IMG/VR virus record: IMGVR_UViG_3300045973_000110
Coordinates: 1 to 54,613 of that record
DNA: 54,613 nt
Source of the DNA: a virus
Reading direction: 5' to 3' (one strand)
The notes under the pieces are model-generated. The model was not told the DNA's origin. It saw nothing but the letters and a program-made list of their open reading frames with translations, and made no database searches. A program made the position numbers and the translations under genes. Positions 26,181 through 46,650 of the stretch are shown here, in pieces (position 1 is the first letter of the stretch; each line of letters starts with the position of its first letter).

Positions 26181-26678
26181 ATGGATTATACTAAGACGAC
26201 TTGGGTTAATGGTTCAACATCGCCAATTAACGCAACAAACCTCAATAAGATTGAGGATGGGATTTATAATTCCGCCGTTGCGATTACGAGTATGGATGTC
26301 GACATCGGTACTTTACAAGAAGATATGACTACTGCGCAACAGGATATTATTGACATCAACGCAGAAATTGGCTCGATGGTTTTGGGCGCTACTATGACTA
26401 CAAACGCAAATACTGCTACGGCAACTGGATTTTATTATGCGGCTGATACGGCTACAAATTTACCTACAGTAAACGCTTATTCGATTATTACCGCGCCATT
26501 TGATGCAACAAATCTTGCTCAAATTGCAATTAAACGTGGTACGACGACCAACTATGCAATGTTCTATCGTGTATGTGTTGCGAATGTATGGTCGGCATGG
26601 CGTAGCGTAAGTGGTAGTACAATCTCTGCAAGTGCACCAAGTGGCGGGCTAGACGGCGACGTTTGGTACGTGGTTTAA
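26181..26678 (+). CDS. Tail fibre protein with pyocin-knob-like C-terminus
   Basis: 165 residues. It begins with the common fibre-attachment motif TTWVNGSTSPINATNLNKIE, followed by a trimeric coiled coil (about 35-65) and a knob-like domain (ATGFYYAADTATNLPT; YAMFYRVCVANVWSAW). It would project from the baseplate as a trimer. Confidence 0.7.
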   Translation: MDYTKTTWVNGSTSPINATNLNKIEDGIYNSAVAITSMDVDIGTLQEDMTTAQQDIIDINAEIGSMVLGATMTTNANTATATGFYYAADTATNLPTVNAYSIITAPFDATNLAQIAIKRGTTTNYAMFYRVCVANVWSAWRSVSGSTISASAPSGGLDGDVWYVV

Positions 26679-42848: not shown

Positions 42849-44003
42849 TTGTATTTAACAAGATTTGTTAATGTAAATAATGCGGATGTAAAAGATTTAA
42901 ATAAATTATCCGCAGATGTCTGGAATCATTGTGTTTTGTTAGACGCTGAATATTATATAAATCACAAAAGATATTTAACACAAAATGAATTGCAAAATTT
43001 ATTAAAAGGGTTTGTCAAATTGCACTCTAAAAATATTCAACATATTATTTTAAAGTATAACCAAGCACGTACCGATATGTTTAATTCGATTAAGTTAAGA
43101 CATAAAAATAGTCGCACGGTTAAACTTCCGTATAAACATAAAAATTTTATGCCGACTGGGTGGGATTATCAAGCCTTTAGTGTCGACTATGAAAGTCAAA
43201 TTATTCGTCTTGGTTCTATAAAAGGGAAAGCTCCTATATTTATTAAGGGGTATAATTTACCACAAAATATAGTTGAGATTGAGTTAGTTTATGATGGCGA
43301 ATATCGATTGTCATTGAAATATAAAATTGACAATAATGTTCGTGTTATACAATCTAATAACTCGTCCGCAATTGACCTTGGAGAAATTCACGCGATAGCA
43401 TCTATCGACAATAATCGTAATGCAATTATTATTACTGGGCGTAAGCTAAGAAGTATTTCTAGGTTACGTAACAAAGAGCAGGGGCGCATTCGTCAGAGAA
43501 TGAGTAAAACAGTTAAAGGAAGTAAACAGAATAAGAAATACCGCAACGCGATAAGTTCTATGAAATTTAAAAACGAACGGCAAACCAAGGATTGTGTTCA
43601 CAAAATAACAAAACATTATGTTAATTATTGCGTAGAGCACAATGTTGCAATTGTATATTATGGAGACTTAGATTCTTCGACAAGAAACACTAAAAAGGGC
43701 GGGAAAATTAATCGCGCTAATCGTCAAAAATTGTCTCAGTGGAATTATGGTCAAGTTGTAAGTCAATTGCAAAACAAATTGTTAAGATTTGGAGTGAAAA
43801 TGGTTAAGGTTAAGGAATATAACACAACTAAGAAGTGTCCAGTGTGTGAAACTTTAAATAAAACCAAGGGGCGAGAATATAAGTGTAAATGTGGTTATAA
43901 AAATCACAGAGACTTAAATGGCGCCATTAATATTCTAAATGATAACAATTGTTATGGTTATAAGATTAATTCTTGTAATACATTCAAGTATCTGCGAGCG
44001 TAA
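42849..44003 (+). CDS. tnpB: TnpB-family RNA-guided nuclease (IS200/IS605), displaced RuvC-II Glu
   Basis: 384 residues from a TTG at 42849 after AAAAAGGAGGTG. RuvC-I is intact (AIDLGEIHAI, Asp176). RuvC-II reads YYGDLDS with Gly272 where most TnpBs have Glu. A Glu (Glu323, VKEYNTTKKCPVC) lies before the zinc ribbon, where some TnpBs carry a relocated catalytic Glu. RuvC-III Asp355 (HRDLNGAIN) and four zinc-ribbon cysteines (CPVC, CKCG) are present. TnpB cuts DNA next to a TAM using a guide RNA from the 3' end of its own transcript. No TnpA transposase is in the window. Whether this copy cuts or only binds is undecided. Confidence 0.85.
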   Translation: MYLTRFVNVNNADVKDLNKLSADVWNHCVLLDAEYYINHKRYLTQNELQNLLKGFVKLHSKNIQHIILKYNQARTDMFNSIKLRHKNSRTVKLPYKHKNFMPTGWDYQAFSVDYESQIIRLGSIKGKAPIFIKGYNLPQNIVEIELVYDGEYRLSLKYKIDNNVRVIQSNNSSAIDLGEIHAIASIDNNRNAIIITGRKLRSISRLRNKEQGRIRQRMSKTVKGSKQNKKYRNAISSMKFKNERQTKDCVHKITKHYVNYCVEHNVAIVYYGDLDSSTRNTKKGGKINRANRQKLSQWNYGQVVSQLQNKLLRFGVKMVKVKEYNTTKKCPVCETLNKTKGREYKCKCGYKNHRDLNGAINILNDNNCYGYKINSCNTFKYLRA

Positions 44004-44711: not shown

Positions 44712-45064
44712 ACCGAGCCCTATTAATACGGTGACAGAGCACGACTGGGCGAGCCTCTCGTGGCTAAAGACAACCTATCCGATTAACGACTCAAAACGGT
44801 AAACAATCCGCGCGTATTAATCGTGAAGTTGGGTAATGAGAAATGGCGTGCATCCCCCTTTGGGGAAAATAGAATAAATATGGTCGGGGCACAGTGCGGT
44901 CGACGTCGGTATGTAACAAAAAGAGTGTGCCATGGTTACTCACTCTAACAAAAAGCATATCTCTTACCTCTTGTATTTGTGACGAGTGGCTATCTGATTT
45001 TACTGATAACCCAATAATTAACCTGTGTGTTAATTACATGTGAGTGGAATGCTCACAAAATCAT
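44712..45064 (+). ncRNA. Structured RNA, copy A (5' part), candidate GOLLD/ROOL-class
   Basis: No credible CDS. The conserved core 44886-45056 includes a GTATGT/GCATAT stem (44909-44914 with 44955-44960) enclosing AGAGTG/CACTCT (44922-44927 with 44941-44946) and a 13-base loop of form TGCC-NN-GG-NN-ACT. The 15-base TGTATTTGTGACGAG (44972-44986) follows, then a GGCTATC/GATAACC-like stem and a terminal GTGAG/CTCAC hairpin (45040-45056). The same elements with changed bases but kept pairing recur at 46310-46473. The 5' side (44714-44733) has an ACCG/CGGT stem and a CCCC/GGGG hairpin. Transcribed from 44111. Confidence 0.7.
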
Positions 45065-45139
45065 CGCGGGTAGGAATGCTGGGCATTCACGGGTCTCATA
45101 AGCCTGTTCAGGGGAGTTCAATTCTTCCACCCGCCTCCA
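45065..45139 (+). tRNA. tRNA-like element with CAU anticodon, degenerate D arm
   Basis: 75 bases folding as acceptor stem (C1 x C72 unpaired, then six pairs), a 4-bp D stem (GAAT/ATTC), anticodon stem with loop CTCATAA (CAT at 45097-45099), a standard T arm (GGGAG-TTCAATT-CTTCC) and encoded CCA. It lacks U8, A14 and A21, so the elbow contacts of a normal tRNA are missing. It begins 8 bases after the terminal hairpin of RNA copy A and could be a tRNA mimic within that RNA rather than a working tRNA. Confidence 0.6.
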
Positions 45140-45423
45140 TTTTAAGTACCATTGGAGCGCGCAAAGCCAATGTTACGATAGCCTTCAAGGCAGGGTTTAC
45201 GGCAAATTCGAAATGCATAGCTATTCGCGTTTGCCTAAATTCGTAATTAACATTCGAGGATAGATAAGGCAGCTATCGCGCCATATTGCCGATGTCGGCA
45301 TTATGGTCTTGAAAGAGATGTGGGGATATAGCCAACCCACCGAATATTAATATTGGTGTACCCTACCATAAGTGGGAACGAAACAAAGCGGTTGTCGGTC
45401 ATCCATAAAAACCGTCAAATCAT
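45140..45423 (+). ncRNA. Structured RNA, copy A (3' part between the two tRNA elements)
   Basis: 284 bases without a credible CDS, full of stems: GGCAAA (45201-45206) with TTTGCC (45230-45235); CCATA/TATGG enclosing TGCCG-ATGT-CGGCA (45281-45306); GTGGG/CCCAC (about 45321-45342); and CGGTT/AACCG (about 45389-45414). Possibly one transcript with the upstream part. It ends in the same 13 bases (AAATCATCGCGGG) that precede and begin the first tRNA-like element. Confidence 0.6.
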
Positions 45424-45498
45424 CGCGGGATAGTTCAGTGGTAGAATATTGGTCTCATAAACCAAGTGTCGTTGGTCCAATTCCAACTCCCGCCTCCA
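45424..45498 (+). tRNA. tRNA with CAU anticodon, initiator-like 1:72 mismatch
   Basis: 75 bases with encoded CCA (45496-45498). Positions: acceptor 45424-45430, T8, D arm GTTC-AGTGGTA-GAAT, anticodon arm TTGGT-CTCATAA-ACCAA with CAT at 45456-45458, T arm GTTGG-TCCAATT-CCAAC. C1 and C72 cannot pair, the hallmark that lets bacterial initiator tRNA be formylated, but the three G:C pairs of initiator anticodon stems are absent and the T loop has C55. tRNA-Met, tRNA-fMet-like or lysidine-type tRNA-Ile are all possible. Confidence 0.8.
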
Positions 45499-46104: not shown

Positions 46105-46650
46105 ACAAATATTAGTTGTTTTGACTAATTACAACTAAAACAAATTAGTGATTACATGCTCCGTAAACCAGTAATCGGAATAAATATAACTGGCGAGAAT
46201 ATTAGGCTCGTAACTGCGCGGGCGAGTGGAATACAGACTGCCACTATAAACAACAGGTGTCGCCCCGACAGATGGCAAGTTCGCAATAGTCTGTCAATTA
46301 ATTTACGGCGGGGTACAGTGCGTCGCCCTGAATGTGACAAAATGGATGTGCCGCGGAAACTCATCCCATACAAAACACATTAATTTTCTGTATTTGTGAC
46401 GAGAGGCTATTGAATTTTTCTGGTAGCCCAACGATTAGCCTGCGTGCTATTCGCGCGTGAGTGGAAAGCTCATAAACTGGTCCACCGCACCTAGGAGGGC
46501 GACCCGATGATTGCTTATACTTGGGGTTGCTAAGTGCTGACAGTTGGCAAAGACCACGATGTCACCTACTTGACAGTAAATTGAGTTGTAGGCACAATCG
46601 ACCTCTTTCTCCATTTCTTGGTCCCATCAAATGAAATGGAAATTTTATTA
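46105..46650 (+). ncRNA. Structured RNA, copy B, candidate GOLLD/ROOL-class
   Basis: About 546 bases without a credible CDS. 5' stems: TTAGTTGT/ACAACTAA (46112-46138), GATTAC/GTAATC (46150-46176), GACAGA/TCTGTC (46267-46295). The core 46310-46473 repeats that of copy A: AATGTG/CACATT (46331-46336 with 46376-46381) around TGGATG/CATCCCA (46343-46368) and a TGCC-NN-GG-NN-ACT loop, the identical TGTATTTGTGACGAG (46389-46403), and GTGAGTGGAAAGCTCAT (46457-46473). The last two elements are 68 bases apart in both copies. Further stems follow up to the hairpin at 46611-46639. Length is near that of ROOL RNAs; identity not proven. Confidence 0.7.

Follow-up and report, generated by a model that had tools for sequence, protein, structure and literature searches.

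Two probable initiator-type tRNAs in a tailed phage, one assigned to a widespread phage tRNA class that includes the tRNA-fMet of T5

A tailed phage probably carries two functional tRNAs of the initiator type, the kind of tRNA that starts every bacterial protein. Both genes lie in the 54.6-kb IMG/VR virus record IMGVR_UViG_3300045973_000110 (54,613 nt), which is the whole stretch analysed and is called here the window; portal, tape-measure and further tail proteins are among the products of its genes. ARAGORN finds just two tRNAs in the window, both tRNA-Met(cat), at 45065-45139 (element 1) and 45424-45498 (element 2), and both have intact cloverleaves. Each is 75 nt long, with anticodon CAU in the loop CTCATAA and an end in which C1 faces C72, followed by U73 and an encoded CCA. 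ARAGORN and the sequence thus confirm what the initial annotation had described, namely two 75-base elements with CTCATAA, encoded CCA and C1 opposite C72. The 13-base identity claimed at the 5' side is exact, and that at the 3' side, given as 11 bases or more, amounts to 12 (CCCGCCTCCATT). The features of the region are as follows.

About 44885 to 45059, plus strand: copy 1 of an unclassified repeated element, which ends at element 1 and is 72% identical to copy 2
45058 to 45070, plus strand: 5' flank and acceptor strand of element 1, AAATCATCGCGGG, an exact 13-nt match to element 2
45065 to 45139, plus strand: element 1, putative initiator-type tRNA(CAU) of the extended-D-stem class, whose 6-bp D stem closes a 3-nt loop; it has C1.C72, U73, U31.G39 and encoded CCA (ARAGORN, class model R3, homologues)
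45249 to 45348, plus strand: skipping-rope RNA (RF02924), located between elements 1 and 2 (56.5 bits by cmscan; gathering threshold 36.7)
45417 to 45429, plus strand: 5' flank and acceptor strand of element 2, AAATCATCGCGGG, an exact 13-nt match to element 1
45424 to 45498, plus strand: element 2, putative initiator-type tRNA(CAU) with a canonical D arm, C1.C72, U73, U31:A39 and encoded CCA (ARAGORN, Rfam tRNA 60.2 bits, phage relatives)
About 46309 to 46476, plus strand: unclassified repeated element, copy 2, found by its match to copy 1

What marks a tRNA with a CAU anticodon as an initiator? An unpaired 1-72 is the major determinant for the formyltransferase, assisted by G2-C71, C3-G70, G4-C69 and A73 (PMC9976931), and A11:U24 contributes to recognition by the same enzyme (PMC7949028). 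Both elements have the CAU anticodon and the non-Watson-Crick 1:72 of a bacterial initiator tRNA-fMet, with G2:C71, C3:G70 and G4:C69 (GCG/CGC) below the unpaired C1.C72, and both have G29:C41 and G30:C40 in the anticodon stem. In the fetched phage loci, 110/272 tRNAs with CAU have an unpaired 1:72, as have 23/80 tRNA-Gln and 10/1575 others; an open 1:72 in the window elements is not a matter of chance, since 0.6% of the tRNAs in these loci that are neither CAU nor Gln show the mismatch. The frequent opening of 1:72 in phage Gln tRNAs is an observation of its own. A sample of 93 phage CAU tRNAs, chosen by anticodon loop and T loop only and not by 31:39 or acceptor, contains 54 without a Watson-Crick 1:72, and all 54 have G2:C71; the full GCG/CGC is found in 34 of these 54 versus 1 of the 30 with G:C at 1:72, although, the sequences being related, such counts and their p-values overstate independence. 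In the group with G:C at 1:72, 23 of the 26 members with a readable D stem carry C11:G24, which is the orientation of elongators. Phage CAU tRNAs thus split into an initiator-like and an elongator/Ile2-like group, and both window elements fall in the former. Cellular initiators fetched from genomes have C1.A72, C1.U72 or U1.U72 and, in cyanobacteria, C1.C72 (L416, L417).

The CAU anticodon is common to initiators and elongators, so could these be elongator tRNA-Met or lysidine-modified tRNA-Ile2 with an odd acceptor end? Two covariance models were compared, one trained on 19 host initiators (R1) and one on 17 host elongator/Ile2 tRNAs (R2). Element 1 scores 40.5 bits with R1 and 27.8 with R2 (+12.7), element 2 scores 66.0 and 60.0 (+6.0), and the tRNA-fMet of phage T5 scores 51.2 and 40.9 (+10.3). 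The other CAU tRNAs of T5 give 33.1/35.9 (Met) and 23.9/59.9 (Ile2, -36), and R2 leads by 25 to 30 bits for those of KVP40-like phages, IT22 and Marfa; T5 and other phages have a separate Ile2/Met(CAU) tRNA, with R2 ahead by 25-36 bits. The differences alone are not decisive, because a few unrelated tRNAs favour R1 by about +3 to +8 bits and several relatives of element 2 (L371, L372, L374, L376, L004) favour R2 by 1 to 7 bits. An elongator or Ile2 identity has in its favour the U11:A24 of element 2 and the 60.0 bits which that element reaches with R2. Against it, 1:72 is mostly paired in the host elongator/Ile2 set, only a minority of whose members have C3:G70 or G4:C69 and none R11:Y24 (the set having been picked with Y11); moreover, the determinants for Ile include C4-G69 (PMC9976931), which both elements lack. 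Of the traits that define tRNA-Ile2 or elongator tRNA-Met (a paired 1:72, Y11:R24 and a better R2 score), only Y11:R24 occurs, and only in element 2. This identity is thus unlikely, and the clear Ile2 or elongator-Met assignment named beforehand as the result that would speak against initiators did not appear, R1 exceeding R2 for both elements. The initiator call is firm for element 1 and moderate for element 2.

Element 1 is the more unusual of the two (CGCGGGT AG GAATGC-TGG-GCATTC A CGGGT CTCATAA GCCTG TTCAG GGGAG TTCAATT CTTCC ACCCGCC U CCA). As had been pointed out, it lacks the canonical U8, A14 and A21; it has A8, and a 6-bp D stem closes a 3-nt loop. The general Rfam tRNA model misses it, presumably due to the unusual long-stem D arm, and only a sub-threshold match to tRNA-Sec is obtained. 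Bacterial tRNA-Sec shares the 6-bp D stem, the short loop and the absence of canonical U8/A14/A21, but a tRNA-Sec identity was rejected: the anticodon is CAU and not UCA, the acceptor stem has 7 bp and is not the longer one of tRNA-Sec, the variable region is short, and the match reaches 26 bits versus a gathering threshold of 47 (RF01852). By blastn, homologues with 72-85% identity occur in 44 phage records, from KVP40-like Vibrio phages, Vequintavirinae, Acinetobacter and Pseudomonas phages and Ounavirinae; they lie mostly within tRNA clusters and are labelled tRNA-Met or left unannotated. The shared-core pattern of this class, whose D stem has 6 bp and whose loop has 3-4 nt, has at least 120 matches in viral contigs.

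Twenty class members including element 1, with T5 tRNA-fMet left out, were aligned. Standard pairs of a cloverleaf with a 6-bp D stem fill 95.9% of cells, 2:71 to 7:66 are paired in all members and 1:72 is unpaired in 15/20; members were partly picked by D-stem and acceptor pairing, so the near-complete pairing there reflects selection of the sample, which does not apply to the compensatory changes. Covariation is 0.764 versus 0.225 in shuffles (0/500), each of the six D-stem pairs varies at both of its positions, and G30:C40 is invariant (20/20). Since the helices carry compensatory changes and 2:71 to 7:66 are always paired while 1:72 is mostly open, the open 1:72 is maintained and not a product of decay. 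The class model R3, to whose training set element 1 itself contributed, gives 80.7 bits for element 1 and 79.6 bits for T5 tRNA-fMet. The traits of a T5-type phage tRNA-fMet (a 6-7-bp D stem, a short loop, GTCTCATAAGC and a non-Watson-Crick 1:72 over GCG/CGC) are all present in element 1; element 2, with its canonical D arm, lies outside. This alignment and these scores place element 1 together with T5 tRNA-fMet in one phage tRNA class, which is widespread and whose members are often labelled ordinary tRNA-Met or overlooked.

The initial annotation had taken element 1 for a tRNA mimic. Its odd D arm is instead conserved and covarying throughout a large class of phage tRNAs with T5 tRNA-fMet among its members, and on the homologues and covariation the reading of element 1 as a mimic or pseudogene was rejected. 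The same evidence bears on two broader alternatives. The elements might be decoys that titrate RNase P, MetRS, the formyltransferase or a tRNA-targeting toxin and never act on the ribosome, for which one could invoke the non-canonical D arm of element 1 and its escape from the general Rfam model. However, the class preserves the anticodon and its stem, the T arm and CCA, every helix shows compensatory changes, and G30:C40 is kept in every aligned member; a decoy of acceptor-binding enzymes would have no need of an anticodon arm. Decoys are slightly less likely still than elongators. Element 1 could also be a degenerating pseudo-tRNA, as its atypical D arm and lost U8 would allow, but its four helices are intact and covary across distant phages, 1:72 alone being open, which makes degeneration very improbable. 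The initial annotation's overall interpretation therefore stands in part: unpaired 1:72 over G2:C71/C3:G70/G4:C69 and higher initiator-model scores in both elements uphold the initiator-like reading, the mimic falls, and the suggested redirection of start-site choice has no specific support. Outside phages, a non-canonical tRNA(CAU) recurs in many Actinomadura species (L266, L269, L270, L271, L272, L278, L283, L293, L296, L339 and others) and combines A8-G9 with a 6-bp D stem and U31.G39; its D arm resembles that of the phage class, but 1:72 is paired (mostly G:C) and CCA is not encoded.

Element 2 (CGCGGGA TA GTTC-AGTGGTA-GAAT A TTGGT CTCATAA ACCAA GTGTC GTTGG TCCAATT CCAAC TCCCGCC U CCA) is detected by the Rfam tRNA model at 60.2 bits. 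It had been called nearly canonical, which holds for the D arm and not for the T loop, where TCC replaces TTC. Across the acceptor stem (CGCGGGATAG...TCCCGCC) it equals a Nostoc initiator, C1.C72 included, and it is by this end that it would be initiator-like. Other phages have relatives of it, and in some of these 1:72 is weak or mismatched. The tRNA-Met genes of Erwinia phage Cronus/IT22, Xanthomonas phage RiverRider and Pantoea phage TacPo2 resemble it in the TAGTTCAG-type D arm, the CAU anticodon and a GCG or GCG-like acceptor; they differ in having A1.C72, C1.A72 or A1:U72, and their 31:39 is variable.

By strict membership neither element is a standard bacterial tRNA-fMet. Both have U73 and not A73. 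Element 1 has the A11:U24 (R11:Y24) of cellular tRNA-fMet, and element 2 has U11:A24, the elongator orientation. Initiators have three G:C pairs at 29-31:39-41 that are highly conserved in all domains (PMC7949028); both elements have G:C at 29:41 and 30:40, but the third pair, G31:C39 in cellular tRNA-fMet, is U31.G39 in element 1 and U31:A39 in element 2. U31.G39 was considered as a hallmark of all phage initiators and dropped, since the first collection had been selected on it; in a sample not so selected it occurs in 7/48 mismatch-type tRNAs and in 6/34 of those with the full GCG/CGC. An initiator-like tRNA of Candidatus Azambacteria (L300/L395), with A1.A72, a GAGC D stem and U31.G39, adjoins an elongator-type CAU tRNA and may be a cellular initiator whose 3GC motif is incomplete.

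Why would phage initiators change 31:39? Enteric VapC cleaves tRNA-fMet between A38 and C39 (PMC4105405), and BoVapC1 acts on the initiator while elongator tRNA-Met is unchanged (PMC8522696). A sharper version of the initiator reading is that the two tRNAs are spares replacing host tRNA-fMet destroyed by an anticodon nuclease such as VapC, the changed 31:39 blocking 38/39 cleavage; it is a tentative proposal. Both elements have lost C39, leaving A38-G39 in element 1 and A38-A39 in element 2, C39 is retained in only 15/34 phage initiator-like tRNAs with the full GCG/CGC, and U31.G39 recurs in T5, Henu11 (a relative of Sf14), Seunavirus and KVP40-like members. The proposal is put forward as a hypothesis because those 15/34 mean that about half of phage initiators still have C39, because the G31:C39 seen in 20/20 hosts is circular (G30 and G31 had served to select these hosts), and because the genomic Azambacteria tRNA L395 also has U31.G39; no VapC is known for the host of this phage either. 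It is possible, if doubtful, that the initiators of many unrelated phages keep the formylation signature and have another pair in place of G31:C39, beside the VapC cut site, and so could start translation after host tRNA-fMet has been destroyed. If true, phage initiators could dispense with the third G:C pair, whose conservation among initiators is described as high.

How would the two tRNAs work? In the preferred reading, as initiators, both would be processed at their 5' and 3' ends and charged by host MetRS via CAU; the open 1:72 would let host Met-tRNA formyltransferase formylate them, and IF2 would deliver them to the P site. During infection they would thereby add to the host's own tRNA-fMet or take its place, for instance where the host tRNA is limiting or destroyed, and sustained initiation during such scarcity or destruction is a plausible benefit. 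Working initiators without complete 3GC would serve as a natural test of the requirements of the ribosomal P site, and working initiators would allow a direct test of the tRNA-replacement anti-defence idea for translation initiation.

Phage initiator-type tRNAs are already known from T5, whose gene (AY543070, 32428-32505) is annotated 'initiator tRNA fMet'; a search for literature on T5 initiator-tRNA biochemistry found none. T5 tRNA-fMet (TGCGGGT TA GATCTC-TGGTA-GAGATC G CTAGT CTCATAA GCTAG ... ACCCGCT U CCA) agrees with element 1 in CAU, a non-Watson-Crick 1:72, GCG/CGC, an extended D stem with CTGG-type loop, A11:U24, G30:C40, U31.G39 and U73. Element 1 differs in C1.C72 (U1.U72 in T5), A8-G9, a shorter D arm and G29:C41 (A29:U41 in T5), and element 2 in its canonical D arm. 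PMC10264068 describes a general avoidance of tRNA-fMet genes among phages, and according to PMC12482277 neither of the Met tRNAs in phage Sf14 is a tRNA-fMet. The Sf14 tRNA-Met gene lies within a conserved stretch matched in 250 phage records. Its 98% identical counterpart in Henu11 (TGCGGGT...ACCCGCC U CCA) has U1 opposite C72 and GCG/CGC, and scores 56.4 bits with R3 and just 36.4/35.1 with R1/R2. Judged from Henu11, the Sf14 tRNA-Met would have an initiator-like acceptor and fit the T5-fMet class, and the published claim of general avoidance looks too strong. What looks under-appreciated is how widespread phage initiator-type tRNAs are, together with the recurrent change at 31:39.

The two genes had also been described as flanked by structured RNA on both sides, which is right for the skipping-rope RNA between them; the repeat upstream folds no better than shuffles. 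Its two copies are 72% identical over 175 columns (E 3e-20), with copy 2 about 1.4 kb downstream, and as their folding energies are not significant against shuffles (z -0.31 and 0.50), 'structured' is unproven for this element. By eye, some hairpins seem changed on both sides between the copies, for example AGAGTG/CACTCT versus GGATG/CATCC. Exact-pattern scans of viral contigs returned no relatives of the flanking repeat, no skipping-rope RNA was among the matches listed in 24 other phage tRNA loci scanned, and a search via the neighbouring 103-aa protein led to two distant loci, and the tRNA layout of the window recurs in neither. Elsewhere in the window, a weak tRNA-like match that may be chance lies within an ORF at 26232-26304 (22.6 bits with R2). 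The RNA-rich region is closely preceded, at 42849-44003, by the gene of a protein matching a phage transposase family (PHROG 506).
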